A stretch of DNA of 64,000 bases from an uncultured Oscillospiraceae bacterium. Lineage in GTDB: Bacteria; Bacillota; Clostridia; Oscillospirales; Oscillospiraceae. Under the pieces are notes generated by a model, which had not been told where the DNA came from, ran no database searches, and saw only the letters and a program-made list of their open reading frames with translations. The DNA is taken from the NCBI GenBank assembly GCA_944385035.1, contig CALWVV010000007.1, positions 1 through 64,000 on the forward strand, read 5' to 3'. The position numbers and the translations under genes are program-made. The stretch's first letter is position 1, and each line of letters opens with the position of its first letter. Shown here piece after piece: positions 19,335-38,342 of the stretch.

Positions 19335-19362
19335 GCTTCTTTCTCCTCTCGCTCCGCTGAAC

Positions 19363-20523: not shown

Positions 20524-21791
20524 ACCTCTTCCTCCTCCGTTTTCTGCAAACTCAATTTATCTTTGAGATCCAAGAGCAGGCGGTCCGATCCGAATCCCCC
20601 GGACTTGGAGAGAATGGCATATTTTTTTCTTCGGTATTCGATCTGCGACAGGACTACGCCAGGGGCCAGTTCCCCCAGAGGGACCAGCTTATCCTGGCCG
20701 ATCTGCTGCATGAAGGCAAGCAGCGTATCTCCACCCGTAACCAGTACCGTGGCCTCCAGTCCCAGGGACAGCAGCCGCTCCAGTACACCGCCCAGGGTGC
20801 GGGAAATCTGAGAACGGATCTGTTCCAAATTCATTCCCATTCCCTCGGCGCAGCGCCGGGTCCTGTCCTCCTCCCCAGTCTGGTTTCCTTCCACAACGGC
20901 CAGCGGAGCGTCTTTCAGCTGGTTCATCCACTCTGCGGTGACCCGCATTCCCTCCGGGCTGGACAGCCAGCCCTCGTCCAGCTTCTGCTCCGGCGTGAGC
21001 TGAATGCGGGGAGCTCCTGTACGCTGCACCTCGTCCAGCTGGCGCAGGGTAATGGGATTGATGCTGCCGCAGACAACCAGCAGCTTTTGGGGAATCGGCG
21101 GAAGCCGGGGTGGTGTTCCCTCCAGTTCCAGCAGATCGGACAGCACGGATGCAAACCCTGCACAGCCCGCCATTATTTTCAGTTCTCCCCGAGCCTTTAG
21201 TTCCCTGGCAATTTCCTTCAGATTTTCATCGGTCGCCGAATCGTAAACCAAGATCCCCTGGGGGAAGCTCTTTGGTACGGTGGCTCCCATCAAAAAGGTG
21301 GGCACGGAGCTTTGACTGTGGATAATTTCTTCCAATTGGGAGCTGTGCACCGGCTCAAAAGGATCTTTCCCAAAAACGCTCTGTGCCACAGGTTCTCCCT
21401 CAATGTAATGCACTCCATTTACGGTGATGCGCCCCAGGAGAGGAAAGGCCGGAATAAAATGGAGGCTCTTTTGGCCGGAGGCATCCAACGCGGCAGTCAA
21501 TTCACTTCCTATGTTGCCCCGCAGCCCAGAATCTGTCTTTTTGTAGATATAGGGTATTCCTGCCTCTACCGCAGCCCGGACGATTCCATAGACTGTTTGG
21601 TAGGCATCCTCCGCCGTCATATGTCTTGTTTCCGCATCTACAATCAAAACCTGGAGGTTGGGATCCATTTTTTCCAGCGTCTCAAAACAATGATCCGAGG
21701 CGATCTGAATCAGGGGCCCATTTGCTTTAAACTGTACACCCGTATCCATTGCTCCGGTAAAGTCATCTGCGATCACCAGCAGTTTGATCAT
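20517..21791 (-). CDS. Four-carbon acid sugar kinase, DUF1537 family (DtnK/OtnK-like)
   Basis: ATP-dependent kinase of 424 residues. The substrate domain starts ADDFTGAMDTGVQF (family DDxTGA motif) and the nucleotide domain has VVCGSINPITLRQ and VTGGDTLLAFM. Characterised relatives phosphorylate the 4-OH of D-threonate, D-erythronate or 3-oxo-tetronate, and pair with PdxA2 or aldolases. ATG at 21791 follows GGAAGG. It is the first gene of the six-gene minus-strand operon and is the best clue that the operon degrades a C4 acid. Confidence 0.88.
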   Translation of the reverse strand: MIKLLVIADDFTGAMDTGVQFKANGPLIQIASDHCFETLEKMDPNLQVLIVDAETRHMTAEDAYQTVYGIVRAAVEAGIPYIYKKTDSGLRGNIGSELTAALDASGQKSLHFIPAFPLLGRITVNGVHYIEGEPVAQSVFGKDPFEPVHSSQLEEIIHSQSSVPTFLMGATVPKSFPQGILVYDSATDENLKEIARELKARGELKIMAGCAGFASVLSDLLELEGTPPRLPPIPQKLLVVCGSINPITLRQLDEVQRTGAPRIQLTPEQKLDEGWLSSPEGMRVTAEWMNQLKDAPLAVVEGNQTGEEDRTRRCAEGMGMNLEQIRSQISRTLGGVLERLLSLGLEATVLVTGGDTLLAFMQQIGQDKLVPLGELAPGVVLSQIEYRRKKYAILSKSGGFGSDRLLLDLKDKLSLQKTEEEEVC

Positions 21792-21900
21792 AGCGGCACC
21801 TTCCAATAATGTTTCATTTTAGAACATATCAGGTAGCACGAAGGTTGTGCGATTTTAACTCATTTCCCAATAAAATGCTCTCTTTTTTTGTTATAATAAA

Positions 21901-21930
21901 TATATAGCACTGGTTGCCCTCTTTTGCAAC
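21901..21930 (-). promoter_or_regulatory. Promoter and dyad of the acid-sugar operon
   Basis: On the minus strand TTGCAA (21924-21929) and TATATA (21901-21906) are 17 bp apart, about 110 bp before the kinase ATG. The dyad GTTGC-N8-GCAAC (21913-21930) covers the -35 box and spacer, a repressor-like position. No sigma-54 -24/-12 pair is present. Confidence 0.5.
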
Positions 21931-22200
21931 ACTTTGTAAGATAAGAATAGTTTAAAAATGAAACAATTTTAAGGGAACGCCGCTCACTCGGGCTGGCAAG
22001 CAAAGGAAAGAAGGCCTCCGCACCCTTGCTGCAGTGCGGAGGCCTTCCTCTCCTGAAATTCCTGTAGATGAAGCAGAGCTTTGATTCGAAAATTGCCTAT
22101 GCATACGCCCCTTCCTGCCGAATCGCCGATGAATCGGATCCGTTACAGATCATTTCCCAGGAATTTATCTCTGATTTTCTTTTTTCCAAGTCGTACCGTC
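21931..22200. other. Intergenic region, no gene seen
   Basis: The spacer between the acid-sugar operon promoter and the opine-dehydrogenase stop contains one strong hairpin (22010-22047) and no convincing coding frame. A short open frame at 22068-22355 has no ribosome site and runs into the antisense of the dehydrogenase. Confidence 0.6.
22005..22047 (-). terminator. Probable terminator of the opine dehydrogenase gene
   Basis: Perfect 14-base arms (22010-22023 and 22034-22047). On the minus strand the hairpin is followed by TTTCCTTTG. It lies about 150 bp past the dehydrogenase stop. Confidence 0.65.
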
Positions 22201-23247
22201 TTAGAAAGACCGCGCATCCGGCAGATACCGGGCCAAGTCTACCGTTGACAGATCCGGTGCCAGTGTCAGAAAATCTACTCCCATATATAACCCAAGCATA
22301 TGGACCAGCGTCTCCATGTAAGGGGTATCAATGCCAAATCTTCTGGCTAAAATGAGATACGGAGCCAGCCCATAGGGCAAATCCTCGCTCAGATACCGGT
22401 GGTTGAGGGTTTTGGGCCCCTTTGTCACCTGGTAGGCCGGCGTCTTGTGCAGCACATCCAACAAGGTGGGCTGTTTCTCCGGCCAAAAGGCGTTGAGCAT
22501 TTCCAGTTCTGTCCTGGGTGGGACACCGCAGGCCTTGACCACCGCCACCCGCTCTGCGTCCATGTGCTCCACAAACCGGGCGACCTTTTCCGTCACTCCC
22601 GTTCCAAACAGCAAATAATCCTCTCCATTTTCCAGGCGGGTAGCATTGAATAATACCAGCGGAGCGTGTATCATAGGGTTTGAATTATTAAGGGATGTAT
22701 CCAGCACGCTGTCCCCAGGGACAAATTGCGGAAACACCTCCTTTAATCTGTCGCACACCGCGGCGGTCTGTTGGGGGTGGACACAGGACAGGGGCATCGT
22801 CTGCTTGACCGTCTTCAAATATACTTCTTCCGGCGCAGGGGAACTGCACAAAATCAGCTGTCCCCCGGTCTCGGCCAGTATACACCCCTTCCGGTCGGCC
22901 TCCTCTCCCAGAACCTGGTCAAACTCAACCGCTCCCCAGCAGCCGTTTGTTACAAGCACCAATTGTCCCGGCGCCAGCGCGCCCTTCAGCGCCACCGCCA
23001 AAGGCCTGTGCCCTTCCGCCACCGTGCAGACCAAAATCACATCACTGTCTTTTGCACAGTCCAAACAATTGGTCAGGACAGGAGAGAATTCCCCCGATAC
23101 GACCCCGCTGGCTTTTAAGTTCTGCGTACGCAGGGAGGATAGTCGATCCAAGCTTCGATCATACAGCGTGACTTCCTGTCCCTTAGAAAGCAGGTATGCA
23201 CTGTACGCCTTCCCTGTGTTGCCGGCACCCAGAATCAAAAATTTCAC
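22201..23247 (-). CDS. Octopine/nopaline dehydrogenase-family oxidoreductase (opine dehydrogenase-like)
   Basis: NAD(P)-dependent enzyme of 349 residues. An N-terminal Rossmann fold (ILGAGNTGKA) precedes the Octopine_DH domain with the hallmark LNNSNPMIHAPLVLFNATRLE, whose His is the catalytic base. The family reversibly couples an amino acid and a 2-oxo acid into an N-carboxyalkyl amino acid; some members act on other hydroxy or secondary-amine acids. GTG at 23247 has a GGGAGGAAG site; the upstream frame has none. It is divergent from a peptide-type ABC importer, suggesting that an opine-like compound is imported and oxidised, though biosynthesis is equally possible. Confidence 0.8.
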   Translation of the reverse strand: MKFLILGAGNTGKAYSAYLLSKGQEVTLYDRSLDRLSSLRTQNLKASGVVSGEFSPVLTNCLDCAKDSDVILVCTVAEGHRPLAVALKGALAPGQLVLVTNGCWGAVEFDQVLGEEADRKGCILAETGGQLILCSSPAPEEVYLKTVKQTMPLSCVHPQQTAAVCDRLKEVFPQFVPGDSVLDTSLNNSNPMIHAPLVLFNATRLENGEDYLLFGTGVTEKVARFVEHMDAERVAVVKACGVPPRTELEMLNAFWPEKQPTLLDVLHKTPAYQVTKGPKTLNHRYLSEDLPYGLAPYLILARRFGIDTPYMETLVHMLGLYMGVDFLTLAPDLSTVDLARYLPDARSF

Positions 23248-23355
23248 AGAAATCTTCCTCCCTTTCTTTTCACTGTGGAAGCGCACACCTACGCATATGG
23301 ATATGCCGCCATTCCAGAAAGAACATCGGGCGTCCTTTTGCCCTGATTATCTGTT

Positions 23356-23384
23356 ATTAAACCAGATTGGCCTTTATTTGACAA
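23356..23384 (-). promoter_or_regulatory. Promoter of the opine dehydrogenase-like gene
   Basis: Minus-strand TTGTCA (23379-23384) and TTTAAT (23356-23361), each 5 of 6 to consensus, are 17 bp apart. Confidence 0.6.
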
Positions 23385-23434
23385 GAAAAAAACCCGATAT
23401 CACACGGATTAATCTAAAATTTTAATACAACCCA

Positions 23435-23449
23435 CAACCAATCGATTGT
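23435..23449. promoter_or_regulatory. Putative LysR-type operator, site 1
   Basis: CAACCAATCGATTGT, inside the longer dyad CCACAAC-N6-ATTGTGG. It is centred about 63 bp before the predicted transcription start of the ABC operon, the usual LysR activation site. Related copies lie at 30329 and 33750. Confidence 0.65.
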
Positions 23450-23468
23450 GGTGCACGGCATTCTTTTG

Positions 23469-23498
23469 TTGGACGCTACCCCCACTTTATACTATAAT
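23469..23498 (+). promoter_or_regulatory. Promoter of the second peptide-type ABC operon
   Basis: TTGGAC (23469-23474) and a perfect TATAAT (23493-23498) with 18 bp between; it leaves a leader of about 100 bases before the binding-protein ATG. Confidence 0.65.
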
Positions 23499-23603
23499 AA
23501 CCCTATTATCAGAGGAATCATTTAAATCGTGAAAGTGAAACACGGAAAAAGGGGAAGAACGCAGCAGACCAGCCGGTCTGCAACGGAACAAGGAGGAATA
23601 ACT

Positions 23604-25154
23604 ATGAAAAAGGCACTTTCTCTTGCGTTGAGCTTCGCACTGCTCGCCGGACTGCTTAGCGGCTGCGGCAACTCCAGCAGCAGCAGCGGTTCAGAAAGCT
23701 CTTCCGGCTCAGAAACGGTTCAGACAAAAACCGTAACCTGGGCCAACAGCAGCGACATCACCAGCCTTGATCCCAGAAACGGAAACTCCACCATCACCGC
23801 CAGTATTTTGGCCTCTCTTTACAGCACGCTGGTCAAGACCGACCCCAATGGTAAAATCGTCTGCGACGCGGCGGCCAGCTACGAGCAGGTGGATGACACC
23901 ACCTGGCACTTCACACTGAGAGACGATGTCTATTTTACCGACGGAACCCAGATGACCGCAGAGGATGTGGCCTACACCATCAACAGCCTGCGGGATACGG
24001 AAAAGCACTACGCTCTTTCCGGTGACTTCTCCTTCATGCAGGTGGAGAAGATCGGTGACTTTGAATTCAACATCATTACGGATTACCCCTTCCCCTCTCT
24101 GCCTCTGCGTCTGAACTACATTAAAATCATCCCCAGCGCTTATGTTCAGGAGGTAGGCGACGAGGCCTTCGCTGCCGCTCCCATCGGCTCGGGTCCCTTT
24201 AAGTTCGTCTCCTGGTCCAAGGATCAGAAGGTCGTCATGGAAAAGAACCCCGACTACTACGGCGATGTGCCCCAGATCGATCAGCTGATCTATGAGGTCA
24301 TCCCCGAGGCTGCGGACCGTGTGGCCGCTCTCCAGGCCGGCGAGGTCGATATCATCTGTAACATCCCCACCACTCAGGCAGAATACCTGAAGGGACTGGA
24401 GGGCTACACCGTGGTGGGACAGCCTTCCACCCGTGTGGTCTGGCTGCAGTTCAATCTGGTCGGAGAAGAAACTCCCCTGGATGATGTGCGGGTCCGTCAG
24501 GCCATCAACTACGCAGTGGACCGGGATGCTCTGATCCAGGGCGTTCTGGACGGCTACGCTGTTAAGGTCGCTTCCATTTCCACCCCCGAGTACGAGGGCT
24601 ATGATCCCGACGTGAAGGGCTATGAATATGATGTAGAGAAGGCAAAGAGCCTGCTTGCTGAGGCCGGCTATGCCGACGGCTTTGAGATCGAATGTTCCGT
24701 GACCTCCGGCCTGCTCAACAGCACCGACGTGGTACAGGCCATTGCCGCTCAGCTGGAGCAGGTTGGCATCCGCGTGAACATCAAGCAGGAAGACTCCGCC
24801 ACCCAGCGTGAGGAGATCGGTTCCGGTACGGTTGCTCCCATGTTCCTGCAGGGACTGGGCGGTCCTTACTGTGACATCAACCTGATTGCCAGCATCGGCT
24901 TCACCGAGGGTGCCCGCTACTGCACCTGGTCCGACCAGGAATTCATGGACCTGGCCAGTCAGGCCGCCTCTGAGATGGGCGCAGAGAAGCGGAGCGAACT
25001 GTTCAGCCAGATGCAGCAGTACATGGTGGACGAGGTTCCCGCCCTGTGGCTGTATCAGCAGGACACCCTGTATGCTTATAACTCTGACAAAGTTCAGAAT
25101 TGGACTGCCCGAACCGACGAGGTTGTACTGATGGACGGCGTAAGTGTTAAGTAA
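23604..25154 (+). CDS. Peptide-type ABC transporter substrate-binding lipoprotein (SBP family 5)
   Basis: Surface lipoprotein of 516 residues. The signal peptide ends in LLSGC (lipobox), followed by a Ser/Gly linker. The mature SBP_bac_5 domain shows DITSLDPRNGNS, WHFTLRDDVYFTDGTQMTAEDVAYTIN, GSGPFKFVSW and DVRVRQAINYAVDRDALI. DppA/nickel/opine-type relatives bind dipeptides, metal-ligand complexes, opines or N-substituted amino acids. ATG at 23604 follows AAGGAGGA. It heads a six-gene operon through the C45 hydrolase and has its own promoter and LysR site. Confidence 0.92.
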   Translation: MKKALSLALSFALLAGLLSGCGNSSSSSGSESSSGSETVQTKTVTWANSSDITSLDPRNGNSTITASILASLYSTLVKTDPNGKIVCDAAASYEQVDDTTWHFTLRDDVYFTDGTQMTAEDVAYTINSLRDTEKHYALSGDFSFMQVEKIGDFEFNIITDYPFPSLPLRLNYIKIIPSAYVQEVGDEAFAAAPIGSGPFKFVSWSKDQKVVMEKNPDYYGDVPQIDQLIYEVIPEAADRVAALQAGEVDIICNIPTTQAEYLKGLEGYTVVGQPSTRVVWLQFNLVGEETPLDDVRVRQAINYAVDRDALIQGVLDGYAVKVASISTPEYEGYDPDVKGYEYDVEKAKSLLAEAGYADGFEIECSVTSGLLNSTDVVQAIAAQLEQVGIRVNIKQEDSATQREEIGSGTVAPMFLQGLGGPYCDINLIASIGFTEGARYCTWSDQEFMDLASQAASEMGAEKRSELFSQMQQYMVDEVPALWLYQQDTLYAYNSDKVQNWTARTDEVVLMDGVSVK

Positions 25155-25216
25155 TCGGTAACCGTTCCAATTAAACATCCGCTTCGGTGCGGTTTCGATC
25201 AACGCAAAGAACACAG

Positions 25217-25256
25217 CGGCGCACCCGGCGTTCAGCATGGGTGCGCCGTTTTATTT
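25217..25256 (+). terminator. Terminator-like attenuator after the binding-protein gene
   Basis: Arms CGGCGCACCC (25217-25226) and GGGTGCGCCG (25239-25248), followed by TTTTATTTC. As no promoter is evident before the permease gene, partial read-through is likely. Confidence 0.75.
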
Positions 25257-25314
25257 CTCCCATCCGGGCACATTCTAGAAAATCCGTCTTTTGCGGTGAG
25301 GAAAGGTTGATAAC

Positions 25315-26235
25315 ATGGGCAAATACTTATTAAAGCGGCTGGGCCAATCGGTGATTGCCATCTTTGGTATCACAGTGGTCGTTTTTGTAATCCTGCATTT
25401 GACGGGTAATCCGGTGGAGCTGATGGTTTCTCCCACCACCCCGAAGGAGCAGATGGAGATCCTCAGTGAGCAGATGGGCTTTAACGATCCCTTGCCGGAA
25501 CAGTACATTCGCTTCCTGAAGGGTGTTTTGACGGGGGACTTCGGCACCTCCTACTACTATAATGAGCCTGCCCTTTCCGTGGTGTTGGAGCGGGCTCCGG
25601 CTACGCTTTCCCTCGCTTGTGCCGCCCTGCTGATCTGTGTGCTGCTCGGCGTTCCGGCGGGAATTCTCTCCGCCGTCAAGCGAAACAAGCTCTCCGATGC
25701 CATTATTCGGGTGCTGGCCCTTTTGGGACAGTGTATGCCCGCATTCTGGCTGGGTATTATGCTGATCATCCTCTTTGCCGTCAAGCTCCATTGGCTGCCC
25801 ACGGGCGGCGCTGACGAGGGTCTGCGCTCCATTATCCTGCCCGCCTTTACATTGGGTTTGTTTTCGGCCGCGACCATCTGCCGCCTGCTTCGCAGCAACA
25901 TGATCGAGGTATTGGGCAAGGAGTACATTGACGTATGCCGGGCCAAGGGACTGCCCGCCCGCAAAATTATCACCAAGCACGCCCTTAAAAACGCCATGAG
26001 CTCCATCATCACCATGCTTGGCATGCAGTTTGCCAGCCTGATCGGCGGCTCTGTCATTACAGAAACCGTGTTTGGATGGCCCGGCGTAGGAAGATTGGTG
26101 GTACAAAGCATCACCAGCAGCGACTTTGCTGTGGTGGAATGTATTGTGTTCCTGATGGCTGTGGTATTTGTCGTGATCAATTTCGTGGTGGATGTGCTCT
26201 ATTGCGTCATCAATCCGCGGGTTCGGCTGCAATAA
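25315..26235 (+). CDS. Peptide-type ABC transporter permease (DppB-like)
   Basis: Inner-membrane permease, 306 residues. It starts with the typical YLLKRLGQSVIAIFGITVVVF helix region, has the LTGNPVELM segment, the EAA loop around YIDVCRAKGLPARKIITKHALKNAMS, and the C-terminal CVINPRVRLQ tail. A GAGGAAAG site lies about 10 bp before the ATG. It follows the binding protein after an attenuator-like hairpin and precedes the DppC-like gene by 15 bp. Confidence 0.93.
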   Translation: MGKYLLKRLGQSVIAIFGITVVVFVILHLTGNPVELMVSPTTPKEQMEILSEQMGFNDPLPEQYIRFLKGVLTGDFGTSYYYNEPALSVVLERAPATLSLACAALLICVLLGVPAGILSAVKRNKLSDAIIRVLALLGQCMPAFWLGIMLIILFAVKLHWLPTGGADEGLRSIILPAFTLGLFSAATICRLLRSNMIEVLGKEYIDVCRAKGLPARKIITKHALKNAMSSIITMLGMQFASLIGGSVITETVFGWPGVGRLVVQSITSSDFAVVECIVFLMAVVFVVINFVVDVLYCVINPRVRLQ

Positions 26236-26250
26236 GGGGGTGCATATCAC

Positions 26251-27111
26251 ATGAAAAAAGGATTTTTGAATACCTGGGACAGCCTTCGGCGGAGCAAAAC
26301 CGGCATGATCGGGCTGATTCTGGTCTTGGTTGTGATTCTGTGCGCCCTGTTTGCCCCTGTTTTGGCCCCCTATGACCCGCTGGCTCAGGATCTGATGAAC
26401 AAACTGAAAGATCCCATTTGGGCCGCCCGCTCCTCCGCCGGCCACATTCTGGGCACCGACCAGCTGGGCCGCGACATTTTGTCCCGCCTGCTTTACGGCT
26501 CCCGTGTAACGTTGATCGTAGCCCTGGCTGGTACCATTGTGGGCGGAATCGTAGGCGTGGTCATGGGTTGTCTGGCCGGCTACTACGGAAAATGGGTGGA
26601 TGCCATTATCATGCGTCTGGTGGACATCCAGCTGTGTTTCCCCTTCACCCTTCTGGCTTTGTTTATCGCCGCGGTTCTGGGCTCCAGCCTGGGAAACGTC
26701 ATTTTGATCGCCGGAATCACCAGCTGGGTACGGTATGCCCGCTTGGTGAGAGGTGAGATCCTCAGCATCAAAGAAATGGAGTATGTTGAGGCCATTCGGG
26801 CCACCGGCGGCAGCGATGCGCGGATTATTTTCTATCATATTCTGCCCAATATCATTAGTCCCGTGATTGTCATCGCCACACTGGAAATGGCTAAGATCGT
26901 GCTGATGGAAGCCTCCTTGAGCTTCCTGGGTTATGGTGTTCCCATCAACATCCCCACATGGGGCCGTATGCTCAGCGAAGCCCGCGATAACATTCTCACA
27001 AATCCCTGGCAGTGCATCTTCCCCGGTCTTTGCATCACCTTGACCGTGCTGGGAGTCAACCTGCTGGGCGACTGGCTTCGTGATTATCTGGATCCGAAGC
27101 TGGATGTGTAA
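26251..27111 (+). CDS. Peptide-type ABC transporter permease (DppC-like)
   Basis: Second permease, 286 residues. It shows the DppC-type N-terminus (RSKTGMIGLILVLVVI), the HILGTDQLGRDILSRLLYGSR block, the EAA loop EYVEAIRATGGSDARIIFYHILPN and the tail NLLGDWLRDYLDPKLDV. AAGGGGG precedes the ATG at 26251. The short N-terminus distinguishes it from OppC at 8.7 kb. Confidence 0.93.
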   Translation: MKKGFLNTWDSLRRSKTGMIGLILVLVVILCALFAPVLAPYDPLAQDLMNKLKDPIWAARSSAGHILGTDQLGRDILSRLLYGSRVTLIVALAGTIVGGIVGVVMGCLAGYYGKWVDAIIMRLVDIQLCFPFTLLALFIAAVLGSSLGNVILIAGITSWVRYARLVRGEILSIKEMEYVEAIRATGGSDARIIFYHILPNIISPVIVIATLEMAKIVLMEASLSFLGYGVPINIPTWGRMLSEARDNILTNPWQCIFPGLCITLTVLGVNLLGDWLRDYLDPKLDV

Positions 27112-27126
27112 GGAAGGAGTATCCAT

Positions 27127-28155
27127 ATGAACCAACAACCGCTTCTGTGTGTGGACGATCTGAGCGTTCACTTCAAGACAAAATATGGTTCTGCCGCGGC
27201 GGTCAATCACATCAGCTTCTCCATGCAAAAAGGAGAAAAGCTGGGGCTTGTAGGGGAATCTGGATCGGGCAAAAGTGTGACCTCCAAAAGCATTATCCGC
27301 CTGCTGGCCTCTCCCCCGGCCTATGTGACGGGCAGCATTCGCCTCAACGGCGAGGAGCTGCTGACCATGTCCGAACGGCAGATGTGCCGGATCCGGGGCA
27401 ATAAAATTTCCATGATCTTTCAAGAGCCCATGGTCAGTCTGGACCCCCTCTTCCCCATCGGGGATCAGTTGGGCGAAGTGGTCCGCCTGCACAAGAATGT
27501 CTCTGCCGAGGAGGCAGCCAAGCTGTCGGTGGACATGCTGCGCACCGTGGGTATCCCCAGTCCGGAGACCCGCCTGAAGCAATACCCCTTTGAGCTCTCC
27601 GGCGGTATGCGCCAGCGTGTCATGATCGCAATGGCCCTGCTGTGTGACCCGGAGCTGCTCATTGCTGATGAGCCCACTACCGCCCTGGACGTTACCATTC
27701 AGGCCCAGATCCTGGACCTGCTTCGCTCCATCAACGAAACCATGGGCACATCCATTATTCTCATCACCCACGATTTGGGCGTCGTGGCCTCCATGGTGGA
27801 TACCGTGGCAGTTATGTACTGCGGCCATATTGTGGAAAAAGCGGACGTACAGACCATTTTCCGCAGCCCGCTGCACCCCTATACCGCAGGGCTTCTGCGC
27901 TCCATCCCACGTCCCGGCGAAGCGCGTGAGGAACTGCAGACCATCGAGGGGACAGTCCCCAGCATCTACCATATGCCAGAGGGCTGCGCCTTCCATAACC
28001 GCTGTCCCGACTGCCGGGAGATCTGCTGCAAGAAGCTGCCTCCCACGAGCCAGCACGGGGACGGCCACATGGTCCAGTGCTGGAAGTACTTCCCTGAGTG
28101 GGAACAGTCGGAAGCGACCGCGGGGGGAGAGAAAGGGGGAACGCCCTGTGTCTGA
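27127..28155 (+). CDS. Peptide-type ABC transporter ATP-binding protein (DppD-like)
   Basis: ATPase of 342 residues with Walker [11 protein letters not shown]-loop FQEPMVS, signature LSGGMRQR and Walker [13 protein letters not shown]. The C-terminal oligo_HPY part keeps cysteines (GCAFHNRCPDCREICC), the DppD pattern. GGAAGGAG precedes the ATG. Its 3' end overlaps the next ATPase by 8 bp. Confidence 0.93.
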   Translation: MNQQPLLCVDDLSVHFKTKYGSAAAVNHISFSMQKGEKLGLVGESGSGKSVTSKSIIRLLASPPAYVTGSIRLNGEELLTMSERQMCRIRGNKISMIFQEPMVSLDPLFPIGDQLGEVVRLHKNVSAEEAAKLSVDMLRTVGIPSPETRLKQYPFELSGGMRQRVMIAMALLCDPELLIADEPTTALDVTIQAQILDLLRSINETMGTSIILITHDLGVVASMVDTVAVMYCGHIVEKADVQTIFRSPLHPYTAGLLRSIPRPGEAREELQTIEGTVPSIYHMPEGCAFHNRCPDCREICCKKLPPTSQHGDGHMVQCWKYFPEWEQSEATAGGEKGGTPCV

Positions 28156-29125
28156 GTCAAATGTGCTTTTGAAGGTTGAAAATGTAAAAAAATGGTTTCC
28201 CGTACGCCGGGGGATCTTTTCCAAGGTCACGGAGTACGTGAAAGCGGTGGACGGAGTCAGCCTGGAAGTCCACGCCGGACATACCCTTGGAATCGTCGGC
28301 GAATCCGGCTGCGGCAAGTCTACGCTGGCACGCGTCATCATGGGGCTGATCCCTCCCACAGAAGGTGTGGTCTATTTTGAAGGCCAGGACATGACCCATG
28401 CGGACCGGGACAGCATCCACCGGATGCGCCGGGACATTCAAATTATTTTCCAGGACCCCTATGCCTCCCTTAACCCCAGACAGCGGGTATCCAGCATCCT
28501 TACGGAACCCTATAAGATTCATCACCTGGGCACACAGCAGCAGGCGATGGACCGGGCGCGGGAGCTTCTGGACCTGGTGGGCCTGCCCCAGGACAGCATG
28601 CGCAAGTTCCCCCACGAGTTTTCCGGCGGACAGCGGCAGCGGCTGTGCATTGCCCGTGCGCTTGCGGTCAATCCCAAGCTCATCGTCTGTGATGAATGCG
28701 TCTCTGCACTGGATGTATCCATTCAGGCGCAAATCATCAACCTGCTGACCCGGCTGCAGAAACAGCTGGGCATCGCGCTGATCTTTGTTTCCCACGATCT
28801 GCGGGTGGTGGAGCACATCTCCTCCCATGTGGCCGTGATGTATTTAGGCCGGATGGTGGAGTACGCAGAAAAGTCTCAGCTTTTCGCGGCCCCCGCCCAC
28901 CCCTACACAAAGGCATTGCTGTCAGCCGTTCCCCAGGCAGACCCCACTATAAAGAAGGAACGGATCATTCTTCAGGGCGATCTGCCCAGTCCCATCCACG
29001 TTCCCTCCGGCTGCCCCTTCCATCCCCGCTGCTTCTCTGCCCGCCCTGAGTGCTCCCAGCAAGTCCCGGAAACCCAGGAGCTTTGCGGCGGTCACCTGTG
29101 CAGCTGCCTTTATCCGGAGCATTGA
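28148..29125 (+). CDS. Peptide-type ABC transporter ATP-binding protein (DppF-like)
   Basis: ATPase of 325 residues. The frame is open far upstream, but family alignment (SNVLLKVENVKKWFPVRRGIF) and an AAGGGGGA site place the start at GTG 28148, within the end of the DppD-like gene. Walker A is GESGCGKST and the signature FSGGQRQR. Walker B reads LIVCDECVSALD: the usual Pro after the catalytic Glu is Cys, an unusual but probably tolerated change. The C-terminus has the Cys pattern GCPFHPRC. Confidence 0.9.
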   Translation: MSESNVLLKVENVKKWFPVRRGIFSKVTEYVKAVDGVSLEVHAGHTLGIVGESGCGKSTLARVIMGLIPPTEGVVYFEGQDMTHADRDSIHRMRRDIQIIFQDPYASLNPRQRVSSILTEPYKIHHLGTQQQAMDRARELLDLVGLPQDSMRKFPHEFSGGQRQRLCIARALAVNPKLIVCDECVSALDVSIQAQIINLLTRLQKQLGIALIFVSHDLRVVEHISSHVAVMYLGRMVEYAEKSQLFAAPAHPYTKALLSAVPQADPTIKKERIILQGDLPSPIHVPSGCPFHPRCFSARPECSQQVPETQELCGGHLCSCLYPEH

Positions 29126-29157
29126 GCTCTCTGTCTTAACATCAAGGAGGTAATTAT

Positions 29158-30255
29158 GTGAATTCTCAGTATGCGCCATCCTACTGCCAGGCGGTAGGAA
29201 CCCCCTATGAACAGGGTGTGCAGCAGGGGCAGTCCCTTCGGGATGCCATCCGCCGCAACTTGACATCCGTCCATCACAAGCTGGAGCAGGAAAAAGTGGA
29301 TATGCAGGTGTATCAGGAGTTTGTGGGACGAAATCTCCGCTTTTTCAAAGAGCAGCGGCCTGAAATGTACGAAGAACTCCAGGGCATTGCCAAGGGCAGC
29401 GAGCTCCCCCTGGAGGATATCCTCCTGCTTAACATCCCCGCCTACTTCCTCTGCGAGTCCTTCCGCCACATCACCCAGGAGTGCAGTATGCTCTGTGTCC
29501 GGGGAAAAGCCACCGCAGATGGAAACACCTACATTATCAAGAACCGGGATATGGGTATGCCTCTGGAGCAGGCGCTGGTACATCACAGCTTCCCCGACGG
29601 CCTGGAAATTCTGGAGGTGGGCGGCGCCGGCATTCTCACTTATCCCGCCGTGGGCATCAACAGCTATGGTCTGGCTGTGACTACCACCGGATTCTGGACC
29701 GAAAAGGACCCCACTCGGATCGACCGGGTGGAGGAGGCTGATATTTTCCTCAACGTGCGCGTTTTGCTGACTTCCTGCAAAACAGCGGCGGAAGCTGTGG
29801 AATTCTGCCGTACCGCCCCGCGTATGAACGGACTCAATGTCATCGCGGCCGATCCAAAGGAGGCCTATGTCATCGAGATGACAGCGGACGAAATTTACGT
29901 GGAAAAGGACGAGGGCACCGGAGTGTTGTACCGGACCAACCACGTCGTCAGCGACCAGCTCAGCCACTTTAATCCCCCCGAGGAGCAGTACCCCTCCACC
30001 CACAAGCGGTATGACCGCATCGGCGAAATGGTGGCCGAGCGCTACGGTTCTCTGCGTTTTCAGGATCTGTACCGGATCATGTCCGATCACACCTATGAAC
30101 CAAACTGCATCTGCCGCCATCCTCACGAGGGAGTTCCCGCTACAACGGTGTCCAGCACACTGTGCGTAGTAGAGGATTTCGAGCTGTGGACCACGCTTTG
30201 CAATCCCTGCCTGGCCCTCCCGCACACCCAGATCGAACACCCCCACAAGGGCTGA
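29158..30255 (+). CDS. C45-family autoproteolytic N-acyl hydrolase/acyltransferase
   Basis: Ntn-hydrolase of 365 residues related to penicillin acyl-coenzyme A:6-APA acyltransferase. The predicted self-cleavage site and nucleophile is Cys109 in ITQECSMLCVRGKATADG, followed by IIKNRDMG, the family's 'DG..l.gqN.D' block; LNVIAADPKEAYVIEM is a further family segment. There is no signal peptide. Members cleave or form amide bonds of N-acyl amino acids and beta-lactams. GTG at 29158 is 7 bp after AAGGAGG; an ATG two bases earlier is directly followed by TGA. It is last in the ABC operon, 32 bp after the ATPase, so it may cleave an imported amide. Confidence 0.85.
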   Translation: MNSQYAPSYCQAVGTPYEQGVQQGQSLRDAIRRNLTSVHHKLEQEKVDMQVYQEFVGRNLRFFKEQRPEMYEELQGIAKGSELPLEDILLLNIPAYFLCESFRHITQECSMLCVRGKATADGNTYIIKNRDMGMPLEQALVHHSFPDGLEILEVGGAGILTYPAVGINSYGLAVTTTGFWTEKDPTRIDRVEEADIFLNVRVLLTSCKTAAEAVEFCRTAPRMNGLNVIAADPKEAYVIEMTADEIYVEKDEGTGVLYRTNHVVSDQLSHFNPPEEQYPSTHKRYDRIGEMVAERYGSLRFQDLYRIMSDHTYEPNCICRHPHEGVPATTVSSTLCVVEDFELWTTLCNPCLALPHTQIEHPHKG

Positions 30256-30328
30256 CCAACGGCAAACCATTCTGCCGTCATTGCCGGATCACAGGGCAAC
30301 GGCGGCTCGGTTTGCTTGCCCCATACCA

Positions 30329-30343
30329 CAACTAAATGGTTGT
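30329..30343. promoter_or_regulatory. Putative LysR-type operator, site 2
   Basis: CAACTAAATGGTTGT with the dyad ACAAC-N6-GTTGT. Its first base is 58 bp before the -10 box of the M24 gene, the same distance as for site 1. Confidence 0.65.
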
Positions 30344-30363
30344 CGTATTTCCAAAAAATCTGT

Positions 30364-30392
30364 TTGCTATGCTGTGGCGCTTTGCCTATAAT
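30364..30392 (+). promoter_or_regulatory. Promoter of the M24/UroD-like operon
   Basis: TTGCTA (30364-30369), 17 bp, and perfect TATAAT (30387-30392), about 75 bp before the ATG. The weak -35 suits an activator-dependent promoter. Confidence 0.65.
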
Positions 30393-30468
30393 ATGGGCAG
30401 AAATAACAAGCGGTGATTCCATTTTTCCAATTGAATCTCCCGCAGAATGATAATTTGGAGGTCTTTGC

Positions 30469-31677
30469 ATGAATGTTCTGGAAGAAAAACGTTCCAGTCC
30501 ACAGTTACGAGACTACGTAAAGAAGCGCATTGAAGGGATGCAGGCGATCATGGCGCGCAAAGGGGTGGATGTCACCATCCTGATGCGTCCGGAAAATGTG
30601 TTTTACTTCAGCAATTTCAATCCCATTCTGATCAGCCATGTGCCCTATTTCATCCTGACCCAGGACGATGCGTTCCTTTTGGTCCACTGCATCCGGCACG
30701 ATCACGCCGTGAATGAGGGAGCGGTGGACAAGGTCCTTTGCTACGGCAAATGGGGCGCGACCAAAGCCGTCGCCATGGATGCCATGGATGCCATGCGGGA
30801 ACTTTTAGGCGATAAGCCTCTGACCGTGGGCGTTGAGGGCGACTATGCCAGCATGAATGTTCTGAACCGGCTGAAGGACAAGCTGAATGTCCGCGCCTAT
30901 GTGGACATTGCTCAGGATGCGGTGGACCTTCGCCTCATTAAAGATCCCCACGAGATCCAGATGTGCCGGATTTCCGGCGAGCTGGTCGACCTGGGCGTGA
31001 CCCGTGCCATCGAGGCTTTGGAAGCGGGCGCCAGCGAGGCCCAGGCAGCCACCCAGGGTCAGTACGCCATGCGCCAGCTGTGGCACGAGAAATACCAGCA
31101 GTATGAAGTCTCCGGATTTTCCAATTCCGAAACGGCCGACATTGATACCCTGGTGGTTTGGTGCATGTCCAATGAGCGCCTCAATTACGGCTGTGACTGT
31201 CCCACAGGCTATGTGCCCATGCCCGGAGACTTGACCATGCCCATGAGCTGGGCCCGTGTGGCTGGCTACAATGTAGAAAACGAGCGCACCGTCATGGTGG
31301 GCCGTGTGAATGACGAACGGCTTCGTGCTTACAATGCCATGCTCAAGGCCAGAGACCAGATTTTCAAGCTCCTGCGGCCCGGCACCATCTTTGAGGACCT
31401 GTACTTTGCCGCTATGAAAGAATATGAGGACGCCGGCTTTGGCGCTATCCTGCCCGGACGCTGCGGTCACGGAATGGGCCTGTCCACCCACGAATTCCCC
31501 TCTGTCACCAAGGGCAACAAAGCTCCCCTGGCTCCGGGGATGGTCTTCACCGTGGAACCCGGTCTGATGAGCGCTGAGCTGGGCGCGGTGCGCAACAGCG
31601 ATACGGTCTTGATTACCGAGGATGGCTTTGAGTTTTTGACCAAATCCCGCAGAGACACGATCATCATTAAAGGTTAA
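30469..31677 (+). CDS. M24-family hydrolase, creatinase-like, metal site degenerate
   Basis: Protein of 402 residues with a creatinase N-terminal domain (residues ~15-160, with RPENVFYFSNF) and a pita-bread C-terminal domain. M24 peptidases need Asp, Asp, His, Glu, Glu. Here the equivalents are Met259, Glu270, His334 (GRCGHGMG), Glu363 (VEPG) and Ser377. The sequence GYNVENERT resembles creatinase (GYYTALERT), which hydrolyses a C-N bond without metal. I therefore predict a creatinase/ectoine-hydrolase-like enzyme instead of an Xaa-Pro peptidase. GGAGG precedes the ATG. It has its own promoter and LysR site and is followed by the UroD-like gene. Confidence 0.82.
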   Translation: MNVLEEKRSSPQLRDYVKKRIEGMQAIMARKGVDVTILMRPENVFYFSNFNPILISHVPYFILTQDDAFLLVHCIRHDHAVNEGAVDKVLCYGKWGATKAVAMDAMDAMRELLGDKPLTVGVEGDYASMNVLNRLKDKLNVRAYVDIAQDAVDLRLIKDPHEIQMCRISGELVDLGVTRAIEALEAGASEAQAATQGQYAMRQLWHEKYQQYEVSGFSNSETADIDTLVVWCMSNERLNYGCDCPTGYVPMPGDLTMPMSWARVAGYNVENERTVMVGRVNDERLRAYNAMLKARDQIFKLLRPGTIFEDLYFAAMKEYEDAGFGAILPGRCGHGMGLSTHEFPSVTKGNKAPLAPGMVFTVEPGLMSAELGAVRNSDTVLITEDGFEFLTKSRRDTIIIKG

Positions 31678-31683
31678 CGATAA

Positions 31684-31719
31684 GGTTGGGCCCGTCTTCC
31701 TCAGAAGGCGGGCCCAACC
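31684..31719 (+). terminator. Intercistronic hairpin between the M24 and UroD-like genes
   Basis: Arms GGTTGGGCCCG (31684-31694) and CGGGCCCAACC (31709-31719), extended by CTTC/GAAG in the loop, without a T-run. It may stabilise the upstream message or reduce read-through. Confidence 0.6.
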
Positions 31720-31758
31720 AAAGATGTGATTTCCATTATGTGAGGGGTGCAAACTGCA

Positions 31759-32763
31759 ATGACCAAAAAAGAACGTATCCAAGCTGCCATCCGCGGGGAG
31801 AAGCCGGATAAGATTCCTTATTCCTTCTGGAGCCATATGCCCGGTACGGATCTGGACCCGGAAGCAATCGCGGAAAAGACCTATGAATTCTATAAAAAAT
31901 ATGATTTTGACTTTGTCAAAACCATGAATAACGGCATGTATGCCATTGAAGACTTCGGCTGCACCGTGGACTACTCGGAGATCGTCAAGGGCGGCGTGGC
32001 CAAAGTTGTCCATTCTCCCATTTCCTGTGCGGAAGACTGGCGCAGCCTGACTGTCTGCCCCTGTGACCAGGGCAGCAACGCACGGGAGCTGCACCATTTG
32101 AAGTTGGTTCTGGACAAGCTGAAGGGCGAAGAGGTCCCCGTCATCTTCACCGCCTTCACTCCCATCACCATTGCCGATAAGCTGTGCGGCGGCAAGCTGG
32201 TTTCCTACCTTGAGCAGGGCCATGGTGCGGACGTAAAGGCCGCCCTGGACGTGATCACCGCGACCACCTGCCAGCTGGTTTCCGCTGCCATCGACCTGGG
32301 GGCAGACGGGATCTTTTTCGCCTCCCAAATGAGCTCCTATGATAAATGCAGCGAGGAGCAGTATCTGGAATATGGCAAGCCCTATGACCTCCAGGTGCTG
32401 GAGGCCGCTCAAAAGGGCTGGATGAATACCATCCACTGCCACGGCAATAATATCATGTTCCACATTCTGAAAGATTATCCCGTCCAGATATTCAACTGGC
32501 ACGCCTGGGAGACCCTTCCCACCCTGGACGAAGCCTATGACCTCACCGGAAAATGTCTGATGGGCGGTCTGAGCCGCACCGACATTACCAATCGGAACCG
32601 GGGCGCCATCCAGCATCAGATCTACGAATGCTTCCAGATGATGGGCGGCCGTCACATGATTTTGACGCCCGGATGTGTGATCCGCTATCCCTTGGACGAC
32701 CAGATGCTGGCCTTTATCGGTCAAACCAGAAACGAAGTGGAGGCCGCTTTTTCCTGTAAGTGA
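31759..32763 (+). CDS. Uroporphyrinogen decarboxylase (UroD/MtaA/MtbA)-family protein
   Basis: TIM-barrel protein of 334 residues, starting TKKERIQAAIRGEKPDKIPYSFW, the usual opening of the non-haem UroD clade. This clade includes methylcobamide:coenzyme M methyltransferases, whose zinc site is His-x-Cys...Cys. Here I see His226-Cys-His228 and Cys306 (LTPGC), a plausible His/His/Cys zinc site. No corrinoid protein or MtaB/MttB-like partner is near, so methyl transfer is only a possibility. ATG at 31759 lies after GAGGGG; GTG at 31747 is an alternative. Its last 43 bp overlap the convergent lysR gene. Confidence 0.82.
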   Translation: MTKKERIQAAIRGEKPDKIPYSFWSHMPGTDLDPEAIAEKTYEFYKKYDFDFVKTMNNGMYAIEDFGCTVDYSEIVKGGVAKVVHSPISCAEDWRSLTVCPCDQGSNARELHHLKLVLDKLKGEEVPVIFTAFTPITIADKLCGGKLVSYLEQGHGADVKAALDVITATTCQLVSAAIDLGADGIFFASQMSSYDKCSEEQYLEYGKPYDLQVLEAAQKGWMNTIHCHGNNIMFHILKDYPVQIFNWHAWETLPTLDEAYDLTGKCLMGGLSRTDITNRNRGAIQHQIYECFQMMGGRHMILTPGCVIRYPLDDQMLAFIGQTRNEVEAAFSCK

Positions 32764-33737
32764 GGCTTGAGAGAAGGTTGTCCGTACATTCTCTGGGCCA
32801 ACTGAATAAATTCCCGTCCTGCCCTGCTAATGCTTTTGTCCTTCAGGCGGCATACGGAAATCATGGGTTTATTGGGCAGCCCTTTCAATAAGAAAAAGGA
32901 TAACTGCTCGATCTGTTTTTCACTGAACAGAGAAAAAAGCCGGCGTCCCATCTGCTCCTGCAACGGTGCGATAAAGGTACCGGGCAGCACGCACGCTCCA
33001 AGTCCCTCCAGGCACAGCGACAACTCTGTGATCAAATTCTGTGTGACCACAACCACGTTGGGTTCGATCTCCTCTGCCGCACACAGCTCCTGAAAGGTCT
33101 GTCCATTTTTAGTATCCGGACTCTGGGCCACAAAGGGGAGCCGGGCAAATTCCCGCAAGAAATGTGCCTCATGGGCGGCACAGTCCTGCTCGTATTGGGG
33201 ATACGTCTGATGGAGCAGCTGGTTTGGCACGACAAGGACAAAGCTTTCCTCATACAGCGGCGTTACAATCAGACCCCTGGTGTTGGACGGTTGATAGCAG
33301 ATACAGAGATCTGCCGTCCCATCATACAGCGCATCCGTGATGTTTCCGCTGCTGGTCCCTTCCACCAAAGTCAGCTTGATCTGGGAGAACATTCGGTGAA
33401 AATCGGACAGAAGCGGCGGCAGCATGATGGTACCGCGCGTCACCGGAATGCCGATGGTCAGCTCTCCCTGGTGGAAGTCTTTGATGTCCTGCACTTCCCG
33501 TGCGTAGTCATCCACACTAGACAAAATCTTTTGCGCGTGGGTCTGGAGGGCTCGTCCTGCCTCCGTCAGGGTCAGCGGGTTGCCCCGGTCAAAAAGCTTA
33601 ATGCCGAAGTATTGCTCCAGCTTGGCAATGTGGTTGCTCAAAGCCTGTTGGGTGATATAAAGGCGCTTGGCTGCACGGGTAAAATTCAGTTCCTCCGCTG
33701 CCACCGCAAAGCATTTGAGGCTGGTAATGCTGAACAT
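32721..33737 (-). CDS. LysR-type transcriptional regulator
   Basis: DNA-binding regulator of 338 residues. The N-terminal winged HTH reads LKCFAVAAEELNFTRAAKRLYITQQALSNHIAKLE, and the rest is a LysR_substrate domain (GELTIGIPVTRGTIMLPPLL; CLEGLGACVLPG) for a small effector. The ATG at 33737 has a GGGAGGA site; the upstream extension in the frame is not LysR-like. It is divergent from the desulfidase-family gene and convergent with the UroD-like gene. A dyad placed just after its own transcription start suggests autorepression, and matching dyads upstream of two nearby operons suggest it activates them. Confidence 0.93.
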   Translation of the reverse strand: MFSITSLKCFAVAAEELNFTRAAKRLYITQQALSNHIAKLEQYFGIKLFDRGNPLTLTEAGRALQTHAQKILSSVDDYAREVQDIKDFHQGELTIGIPVTRGTIMLPPLLSDFHRMFSQIKLTLVEGTSSGNITDALYDGTADLCICYQPSNTRGLIVTPLYEESFVLVVPNQLLHQTYPQYEQDCAAHEAHFLREFARLPFVAQSPDTKNGQTFQELCAAEEIEPNVVVVTQNLITELSLCLEGLGACVLPGTFIAPLQEQMGRRLFSLFSEKQIEQLSFFLLKGLPNKPMISVCRLKDKSISRAGREFIQLAQRMYGQPSLKPHLQEKAASTSFLV

Positions 33738-33749
33738 AGCAGGTCCTCC

Positions 33750-33764
33750 CAACAAAAAGGTTGT
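33750..33764. promoter_or_regulatory. Putative LysR-type operator, site 3 (autoregulatory)
   Basis: CAACAAAAAGGTTGT, 13 of 15 identical to site 2, with the dyad CAAC-N6-GTTG. It lies at about +5 to +19 of the predicted lysR transcript, where binding would block transcription. Confidence 0.65.
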
Positions 33765-33775
33765 TTCTAACGTCA

Positions 33776-33804
33776 ATTTTATATTTTTTAATTGTAAACT
33801 GCAA
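33776..33804 (-). promoter_or_regulatory. lysR promoter
   Basis: Minus-strand TTGCAG (33799-33804), 17 bp, TAAAAT (33776-33781). The predicted start near 33769 falls just before operator site 3. Confidence 0.55.
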
Positions 33805-33842
33805 GAGATTTTTACCGTACGAGTAGGAGGATAGATCATCCC

Positions 33843-35159
33843 ATGGAAGAAACGTTATATCGCAATCATCTGGCAATTTTGAAGGAAGAACTATTGGTGG
33901 CTCTCGGCTGCACCGAGCCCATCGCCATTGCATACGCGGGGGCAAAGGCCCGGCAGCTGTTGGGAGCAATGCCGGAGCAATGCCAGGTTTATTGCAGCGG
34001 AAACATCATTAAAAATGTTAAAGGTGTCATCGTGCCCAATTCCGGCGGCATGCGCGGAATGGACGTAGCGGCTACCCTGGGCATTGTGGGCGGAGATCCG
34101 GAACAAGAGCTGGCGGTGTTAGAGAGCGTCACCCAGCAGGACATTGAGCATGCGCAAGCCCTTTTGAAGGAGAATTTTTGTCAATGCCACCTGGTGGAGG
34201 AGGTGGATAACCTCTATGTCCTGGTGGAGGTGACCGGCGGCGGCCACTGTGCAAAGGTCGAAATTCAGGAGCACCACAACCATATCACCTACATGGAAAA
34301 AGATGGCGAAGTGGTATTGGACCACCGGCCCACGCCCCAAACGGCCCCCAAAAACACAGGTGCGGACCGGATGCTGCTGAATCTGCAAAATATTTTGGAA
34401 TTTGCGGAGGAAGTCCAGTTAAGCGATGTGCAAGAGCTCCTTCAGCGCCAAATCGACTACAACTGCGCCATCTCTACAGAAGGCTTGAAGGGCAACTATG
34501 GTGTGGAAACCGGACGAATTTTAATGTCCAATTCCATCAACGCCATGGGCCTTAACCGGGTTCGGCTTCAGGCCCGTGCGGCGGCTGCGGCCGGCAGCGA
34601 TGCGCGCATGAGCGGCTGCTCCCTGCCTGTTGTCATCAACAGCGGCAGCGGCAACCAGGGGATCACCGTTACCATGCCCATCGTTATGTATGCCAGGCAT
34701 TGGGAGGCGGACCAAGCCCTGCTCTATCGGGCCCTGGTCATCGGCAATCTGGTCAGCGTCCACCAGAAAAAATATATCGGCAGCCTGAGCGCCTATTGCG
34801 GCGCTACCAGCGCCGCTACCGGCGCGGCCTGCGGCATTGGTTATATGCTCCTGAAACAGCAGGGTGACAGCACAGAGCGGATCTACAAAGTTCTGGGTGA
34901 CACCATCACCAACAGCATCGAGACGCTGGGCGGCATGGTGTGCGACGGTGCCAAGGCCAGCTGTGCCGCTAAAATCGGCATTGCAGTGGAAAACGCGCTC
35001 ATGGCGCTGGAGCTGAGCCTGGCCGGCAACGTATTCCAGCCCGGCGAGGGTATGACCATGGAAAACCCGGAAGACACCATCGCCGCAGTGGGCCGTATGG
35101 GCCGTGTAGGTATGAAAAGCACCGATATTGAGATTCTCAATATCATGCTGGGCAAATAA
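33843..35159 (+). CDS. L-cysteine desulfidase-family Fe-S lyase (CdsB/CyuA/UPF0597)
   Basis: Cytosolic protein of 438 residues. The N-terminal ALGCTEPIAIAYA motif and C-terminal cysteine blocks CGATSAATGAACG and VCDGAKASC are those of the oxygen-sensitive 4Fe-4S family that includes archaeal L-cysteine desulfidase and E. coli CyuA (cysteine to pyruvate, sulfide and ammonia) and is related to the serine dehydratase alpha chain. Other beta-eliminations are possible. GTAGGAGGA lies about 12 bp before the ATG. It is divergent from lysR and is followed by a strong terminator, so it is a single-gene unit probably within the same regulon. Confidence 0.88.
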   Translation: MEETLYRNHLAILKEELLVALGCTEPIAIAYAGAKARQLLGAMPEQCQVYCSGNIIKNVKGVIVPNSGGMRGMDVAATLGIVGGDPEQELAVLESVTQQDIEHAQALLKENFCQCHLVEEVDNLYVLVEVTGGGHCAKVEIQEHHNHITYMEKDGEVVLDHRPTPQTAPKNTGADRMLLNLQNILEFAEEVQLSDVQELLQRQIDYNCAISTEGLKGNYGVETGRILMSNSINAMGLNRVRLQARAAAAAGSDARMSGCSLPVVINSGSGNQGITVTMPIVMYARHWEADQALLYRALVIGNLVSVHQKKYIGSLSAYCGATSAATGAACGIGYMLLKQQGDSTERIYKVLGDTITNSIETLGGMVCDGAKASCAAKIGIAVENALMALELSLAGNVFQPGEGMTMENPEDTIAAVGRMGRVGMKSTDIEILNIMLGK

Positions 35160-35264
35160 TCTCCCCTTATCCTGTTCTTCCCGTATCCCTTCTCCCCTCT
35201 GAAGGGCAGCTGGAAAACCGGCTTTCGCTATACGGGATTCCCTTTTCTATTACTCGATCGGTTT

Positions 35265-35314
35265 AAAAATACCTACCGCACCGTTTGCCAAAGCAGGGTG
35301 CGGTAGGTATTTTT
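35265..35314. terminator. Strong terminator after the desulfidase-family gene
   Basis: Perfect 18-base arms (35265-35282 and 35297-35314), ending in five T on the plus strand and starting with five A, so it works in both directions. The surrounding 35160-35475 spacer holds no gene. Confidence 0.92.
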
Positions 35315-35412
35315 ATAAGGAAAACAAGTCCAGTCTGTGGAAGCAAGCACTTTGTCTTTCTTCGCAGCACGCTTTCTCCGCACCAATGGCCCAACAATAT
35401 TCCCGCTAGGGG

Positions 35413-35441
35413 TTGAAAAAGCCAGAATGCTATTCTAAAAT
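35413..35441 (+). promoter_or_regulatory. Promoter of the regulator gene at 35476, with a small dyad
   Basis: TTGAAA (35413-35418), 17 bp, TAAAAT (35436-35441). The dyad AGAAT-GCT-ATTCT (35424-35436) lies in the spacer and touches the -10 box, suggesting autoregulation. Confidence 0.6.
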
Positions 35442-35475
35442 ATAGGAAAAACAACTTCAGAGAAAGGCGGGCTTT

Positions 35476-36831: not shown

Positions 36832-36879
36832 CGCCCACCCAGGCCATTTGTGCAAAAACACCACACCATTTTCTTAAAA

Positions 36880-36933
36880 AGATTCAGAGAACCTTCCTTT
36901 TGGGTCGTGTTCTCTGAGTCTCTTTTCTTTTTT
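36880..36933 (+). terminator. Terminator of the regulator gene
   Basis: Arms AGATTCAGAGAAC (36880-36892) and GTTCTCTGAGTCT (36909-36921) pair with one G-U wobble; CTTTTCTTTTTT follows. Confidence 0.88.
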
Positions 36934-37046
36934 CCCTTAACGAACATAAGTCTCCCGGCAATTCAGTACACTAAATTGCGATTTTGTTGTGCTATTTGCA
37001 TAAATTTAGTGCTTTCTTTTCTGTACTTATACCGGGGAACTCTTTG

Positions 37047-37075
37047 TTGACACCATTGCTCTGGCATAGTATTAT
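37047..37075 (+). promoter_or_regulatory. Strong promoter of the M20/YfcC operon
   Basis: Consensus TTGACA (37047-37052), 17 bp, TATTAT (37070-37075). It is one of the closest matches to a housekeeping promoter in the window. Confidence 0.8.
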
Positions 37076-37082
37076 ACTAAAT

Positions 37083-37097
37083 AAAGTACTGTACTTT
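37083..37097. promoter_or_regulatory. Operator-like dyad at the M20 transcription start
   Basis: AAAGTAC-T-GTACTTT, perfect 7-base arms, at about +1 to +15 of the M20 transcript. Three more GTAC half-site-like elements lie at 36966, 37023 and 37102. Binding here would repress the strong promoter. Confidence 0.6.
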
Positions 37098-37136
37098 TAG
37101 CGTACCTTAATTATCGTGATGGGAGGCCGATCATTT

Positions 37137-38318: not shown

Positions 38319-38342
38319 TTGTGTGATAAAGGAGGAACTTTC

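Follow-up and report, generated by a model that had tools for sequence, protein, structure and literature searches.

Does the LysR-type regulator encoded at positions 32721-33737 (minus strand) of this stretch of DNA control the genes around it, and through which sites? The stretch analysed here (the window) comprises 64,000 nucleotides from an uncultured Oscillospiraceae bacterium, and a first-pass annotation had read a three-site LysR regulon from its letters. We consider it probable, from comparison of sequences, that this protein is a dedicated local activator of two operons, and that it is probably autorepressed.

Gene content and the three dyads

The regulator has HTH_1 and LysR_substrate domains, with PF00126 (74.6 bits) and PF03466 (101.7 bits) both above cut-off, which places it among LysR-type proteins. 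One putative target is a predicted plus-strand operon (23604-30255) for a solute-binding protein of family 5, two permeases, two ATPases, and a C45-type acyltransferase/hydrolase; the family search named its first and last genes, and the permeases and ATPases were assigned by eye. The other encodes an M24 family metallopeptidase (30469-31677, plus strand), whose nearest solved relatives are prolidases, with creatinases also among them, and a URO-D family protein (31747-32763, plus strand). The nearest NCBIfam models of the latter are MtaA/CmuA-type methyltransferases, at scores below their cut-offs, and a PDB search with this protein gave no match at 1e-5. Divergent from lysR is an SDH_alpha family gene (33843-35159, plus strand), presumably CyuA-like, which is a possible further target. 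The module could plausibly serve to take up a small acylated peptide or amide and hydrolyze it. A literature search for work linking at least three of LysR, AbgT, uroporphyrinogen decarboxylase and the M24 family found none.

Two neighboring features were also recorded. Near the SDH_alpha gene is a 451-aa ORF (35476-36831) with no Pfam match at 1e-3 and no NCBIfam match at 1e-5; its C-terminal part resembles a DNA-binding domain by eye, making it a possible second regulator. On the minus strand, a run of genes at 15925-21806 encodes a transporter, PdxA-like, DapA-like and iron alcohol dehydrogenase-like proteins, and a sugar-acid kinase (the kinase named by SBD_N and NBD_C, the others by eye), and is perhaps a separate sugar-acid pathway.

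The three 15-mers of the first-pass annotation are present at 23435, 30329 and 33750. The dyad of operator 1 (ACAACCAATCGATTGT, 23434-23449, plus strand) is a candidate recognition site for the promoter of the ABC/C45 operon, and that of operator 2 (ACAACTAAATGGTTGT, 30328-30343, plus strand) is its counterpart at the M24/UroD promoter. At both, the predicted -10 element, a TATAAT, begins exactly 58 nt past the dyad start as had been claimed (23493-23498 and 30387-30392, plus strand), and the dyad centers near -63 of the predicted, unmapped transcription start, also in agreement. LysR recognition sites usually lie near -65 and activation sites near -35. The third dyad (ACAACCTTTTTGTTGG on the lysR strand, 33749-33764, minus strand) lies, as proposed, within the predicted transcript of lysR itself, at about +5 to +20 of its predicted start (positions by eye), with the start codon 12 nt further on. 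The earlier account lacked a third block, CTGTTNGA, which occurs at +31 and overlaps the -35 element. In operator 1 this block reads TTGTTGGAC (23466-23474, plus strand), a candidate activation site overlapping the -35 hexamer TGGACG (23470-23475); in operator 2 it reads CTGTTTGC (30360-30367, plus strand) and overlaps TTGCTA (30364-30369).

How specific are these patterns? In the window the dyad gave five strand hits at four places against 0.72 expected, a count reached in 1 of 100 shuffles. The fourth place (46118, minus strand) is inside ORF 45523-46281, and we put this match down to chance. When the dyad was combined with TATAAT at exactly 58 nt, the window held two occurrences and 300 dinucleotide shuffles of it held none in total. 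Across the 2.52-Mb genome, however, ACAAC-N6-RTTGT gave 11 strand hits (8 places) against 5 for a reversed control, so the dyad by itself is weak evidence. One of the eight places, a perfect palindrome outside the window (ACAACCAATTGGTTGT, L007 7451-7466, equal to G000:C24:21450-21465), lies inside a terminator-like stem and was rejected as a false-positive operator. The genome-wide motif search suggested as a check shows the dyad alone to be common; the strength of the case lies in the combined geometry and its conservation at orthologous promoters and not in the dyad.

Conservation of the operator in related genomes

At a cut-off of E 1e-65 or better, LysR orthologues were identified in 6 of 64 genomes of the genus, counting the window's own. 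The five among the 63 other genus genomes (G001, G017, G035, G440 and G445) and one from another family (G204) are 44-71% identical to the window protein. G204 was the one further orthologue in an order-wide sample of 394 genomes (at most five candidates scored per genome). A family sample (400 genomes, E 1e-75, at most five candidates scored per genome) returned the window's own LysR and no other, as did a class sample for M24 with the window's own M24 (391 genomes, E 1e-150, at most four candidates per genome). More orthologues may exist, since the groups were sampled and few candidates were scored per genome. A contig scan for LysR relatives yielded a single Microcoleus locus (24% identical), which was set aside.

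The regulator gene adjoins urod and m24 in all seven orthologue-bearing genomes, the window included, and the importer varies. A peptide-type ABC set with C45 occurs in the window and in G445, which carries two more distant AbgT genes as well (42 and 32% identical); an AbgT-type transporter is found in G017 and G204, AbgT with C45 in G440, and an ABC set divergent from lysR in G035. In G204, abgT, m24, urod, lysR and the SDH_alpha gene lie together (L055, G204:C1:312000-331999). The presence of this complete module in a genome of another family, with an M24 protein 76% identical, suggests horizontal transfer of the module. In G001, a contig (L048, G001:C82) joins an octopine-dehydrogenase (odh) fragment, from codon 145, to the end of an AbgT gene, from codon 432, near position 4345. 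This junction is either a chimeric contig or a deletion, and an AbgT protein search of that genome found nothing at E 1e-40; because of the join, the G001 promoter was left out of the comparison.

In all five relatives with a readable promoter, an operator precedes the transporter or M24 operon and keeps its distance to the -10 element, as the proposal would have it. The strict dyad precedes abgT in G440 and G204 and m24 in G035; the G017 abgT and G445 m24 promoters carry relaxed dyads that could be aligned once the third block was known. All five have the dyad, CTGTTNGA at +31 over the -35 element, and the -10 element at +58/59. The dyad centers at about -63 of the predicted start in both window promoters and in all five relatives (two with relaxed dyads), in keeping with a -65-type recognition site. 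What is seen directly, then, is a set of sequence blocks at constant distances from one another that orthologous promoters retain.

Shuffling supports this conservation. CAAY-N7-YTGT, TGTTNG at +32 (+33 in G204) and TAnnnT are present in all five regions (G017, G204 and G440 abgT; G035 and G445 m24), and the combination arose in 0 of 5000 shuffles of each. This three-block pattern was drawn up after most promoters had been seen, five of them having been inspected by the time it was complete. The later matches were limited to G017, G445 and G013, each with a relaxed dyad (YTGT for RTTGT, and in G445 and G013 also CAAT for CAAC). The strict dyad of the first-pass annotation, taken with TAnnnT at 57-59, was found in three of the five regions, with shuffle rates of 0 to 0.0006 per region. 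Over seven promoters (the window's two and these five, with G204 aligned after removal of one base), the invariant positions are A-1 C0 A1 A2, A6, T12 G13 T14, T32 G33 T34 T35, G37, T58 A59 T60 and T63, and pairwise identity is 82% in the blocks versus 38% outside them. The -10 element is TATAAT in four promoters (window twice, G017, G440), TATTCT in G035 and G204, and TATCTT in G445. With a 17-nt spacer, five of the seven have TNGAC as their -35 element, G440 has TGGAA and operator 2 has TTGCT. Leave-one-out matrix scores for the seven ranged from 23.5 to 40.1; elsewhere in those loci the top score was 16.7, inside the G204 abgT gene. As CTGTTNGA overlaps the -35 hexamer, its conservation may partly reflect promoter constraint. 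LysR operators usually carry a T-N11-A signature, which is absent from the dyad consensus CACAAC-N6-RTTGT, with its even spacing and a left arm that contains no T.

Among the 64 genus genomes, the dyad plus third block at a gap of 16-18 nt occurs at 15 places in 13 genomes (reversed control, 5 hits). A gap of exactly 17 occurs at five places, all at these operons (twice in the window genome, and in G017, G035 and G440); the other ten have gaps of 16 or 18 and are in genomes without a LysR orthologue. The dyad with TATAAT was found at six places (control, 2 hits), five of them with an exact 43-nt gap: four belong to these operons, and the fifth lies in a genome without the orthologue (G432). 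Relaxing the pattern in seven genomes added the G445 and G204 operators (control, 4 hits), along with two off-target places with a gap of 18, in G035 and G204. Operators 1 and 2 alone fit in the window genome (assembly 89.5% complete), so the regulon looks local. Conservation favors the claimed control of the ABC/C45 and M24/UroD operons. Control of the ABC operon is unsupported in G035 and G445, where that operon is placed differently and a search for the three-block operator did not find it.

A more distant locus bears on spacing. G013, a member of the window's genus, encodes a LysR 38% and a URO-D protein 64% identical to those of the window, with lysR/urod adjoining an ABC set. Between its ABC operon and urod (L051, G013:C81, 5597-5763) are two relaxed operator copies back to back, identified post hoc with the relaxed dyad. 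One, at 5660 on the minus strand, faces the ABC operon with TAAAAT at +59; the other, at 5698 on the plus strand, faces urod and has TATGCT at +60. Each copy reads CAAT-N7-CTGT with an 18-nt gap, and none of 400 shuffles of this 15-kb locus gave a match. Two rows, G013 and G204, lie outermost in the LysR tree and were flagged by the program as long branches; the other six form an inner group with support of 82/98 that includes G001, whose promoter was not compared. All six inner-group promoters have a gap of 17 separating dyad from third block, and the three that belong to the outer LysRs have 18. Since G013 has 18 although it belongs to the window's genus, the gap tracks the regulator's tree and not the genus. 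Operator spacing may thus follow the regulator, a suggestion based on three promoters; speaking against it, the helix-turn-helix of the G013 LysR is no nearer to that of the window protein than a paralogue's is. Comparing inner with outer regulators, whose gaps are 17 and 18, would be a clean way to learn how a LysR protein fixes the interval separating its two sites.

The lysR promoter and leader

The predicted lysR promoter (33776-33804, minus strand) consists of a -35 TTGCAG (33804-33799), a 17-nt spacer and a -10 TAAAAT (33781-33776). In a seven-row alignment of the window and its six relatives, the CTTG and TAnAnT columns are invariant. Over the -35 and facing the divergent gene is a CTTGY-N5-ACAA element (33791-33805, minus strand), in which ACAA is retained in five of seven rows (window, G001, G017, G440, G445) and replaced by ACAG in G035 and TCAA in G204. 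This element might represent divergent -35 elements that overlap each other, or a second contact through which LysR acts on the SDH_alpha gene, at which a search for the three-block operator found none.

Further downstream, ACAAY-N6-RTTGG precedes the start codon by 11 or 12 nt in the window and in four of the six relatives (G001, G017, G440, G445), and is not found in the lysR leaders of G035 or G204. It arose in 0 to 13 of 5000 shuffles of the seven 60-nt leaders. Conservation of the third site is thus a matter of how strictly it is drawn: the original 15-mer recurs in none of the six relatives, CAAC-N6-RTTG in two (G001, G017), and the relaxed form in four. For the autorepression that had been proposed, the position of the site fits, but the 15-mer itself is not conserved in the leaders. 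From the position of this dyad, which follows the predicted start and lies over the ribosome-binding region, we propose negative autoregulation of lysR.

Alternative explanations and the favored model

The site in the lysR leader could instead be a ribosome-binding region or RNA element, its RTTGG, which runs into GGAGG, being kept for translation. The right half of the dyad does overlap the Shine-Dalgarno region, G035 retains ATTGG alone, and the predicted folds of three of seven leaders (window, G440, G445) bring the dyad halves together in a hairpin of 4-5 bp. We nevertheless judge this unlikely: translation has no need of the left half, ACAAY, which is kept at exactly six bases in five of seven, the halves are unpaired in the predicted folds of the other four leaders, and no hairpin common to the seven was found. 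A somewhat smaller chance attaches to the possibility that another regulator, unlinked or a LysR paralogue from the same genome, reads the operators while control by the adjacent LysR is confined to its own gene and the SDH_alpha gene. Operator, operon and lysR co-occur completely, so that co-occurrence cannot name the binder; moreover, the lysR promoter has a conserved element of its own and the leader dyad is loosely conserved. Helix-turn-helix identity is likewise indecisive. The orthologues match the window LysR at 45-51 of 61-62 positions and a paralogue in the window genome at 34/62, yet the G013 LysR, which has operators, matches at about the paralogue's level (35/61). Set against this, a related dyad is present in the lysR leader of five of seven genomes, and the change in gap from 18 to 17 tracks the LysR tree. 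In addition, lysR was the sole known regulator among 15 window genes used as queries (20517-39758) to match all seven related loci, none of which was matched by the possible second regulator at 35476-36831.

It is highly improbable that the dyad is a SufR-type operator bound by an iron-sulfur regulator rather than by LysR, even though the sites at 30329 and 33750 match CAAC-N6-GTTG exactly. The SufR model TIGR02702 was over cut-off in none of the seven LysR-orthologue genomes (the window genome being 89.5% complete), where the single weak match was 21.7 bits in G204; a control search passed the cut-off in 1 of 14 named genomes. SufR is described as a repressor of suf loci, whereas the sites here are at -63 with a block at -35, and the named genes include none for Fe-S assembly. 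That the three dyads are chance matches picked out by eye, with a coincidental 58-nt distance, has next to no probability: the count for the dyad alone, little above its control, would allow it, but the fixed-spacing conservation at orthologous promoters argues strongly against it.

We thus favor control by the LysR of 32721-33737 itself. Under this model, the protein would bind the CACAAC-N6-RTTGT dyad at about -63 before the ABC/C45 and M24/UroD operons, would also contact the half-dyad block overlapping the -35, and would recruit RNA polymerase to promoters with a good -10 and a poor -35, so acting as an activator at these two sites. In its own leader it would bind the third dyad, which follows the predicted start and overlaps the ribosome-binding region, and there it would most likely block lysR transcription. 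We further infer that it responds to a small metabolite derived from the imported substrate. The prediction looks real because matching sites recur at the same promoter distances in related bacteria. A regulon spotted by eye in a single raw window has stood up to comparative tests, and the outcome is a precise operator model for an uncharacterized LysR that seems to govern a module for import and hydrolysis.

A broader reading is conceivable, although we lean slightly against it: an undescribed LysR subfamily may read a SufR-like palindrome (CACAAC-N6-GTTGTG) in place of T-N11-A and run a mobile catabolic module in two bacterial families, with the recognition-activation distance shifted by one base along the regulator tree. 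That module would comprise a peptide ABC or AbgT importer, a C45 acylase, an M24 peptidase and an MtaA-like protein.

LysR-type regulation as such is already well known. According to the excerpted text of two sources, a LysR tetramer holds the recognition site and shifts its grip on the activation site upon ligand binding (PMC11739112, PMC12609908). The system reported here resembles BenM, CbnR and YhaJ, which those sources name, in protein domains, in the upstream position of the dyad, in a second block over the -35, in a regulator gene beside its targets and in a site at the regulator's own promoter; it differs in its dyad, CACAAC-N6-RTTGT, which has even spacing and no T-N11-A, and in that binding here is predicted. 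In the portion of PMC8593673 consulted, the SufR palindrome is given as CAAC-N6-GTTG, the same core as in our operators; SufR differs in belonging to another protein family (not over cut-off in these genomes), in acting on other genes and in being a repressor. The LysR regulators PcaQ and CutR are reported in the excerpt of PMC12609908 to use T-n12-A, with the CutR site at about -60. Like theirs, the operator described here departs from T-N11-A; unlike theirs, which keep a T...A pair at 12 bases, the window dyad is without that pair. Its departure from T-N11-A may be a further specificity.
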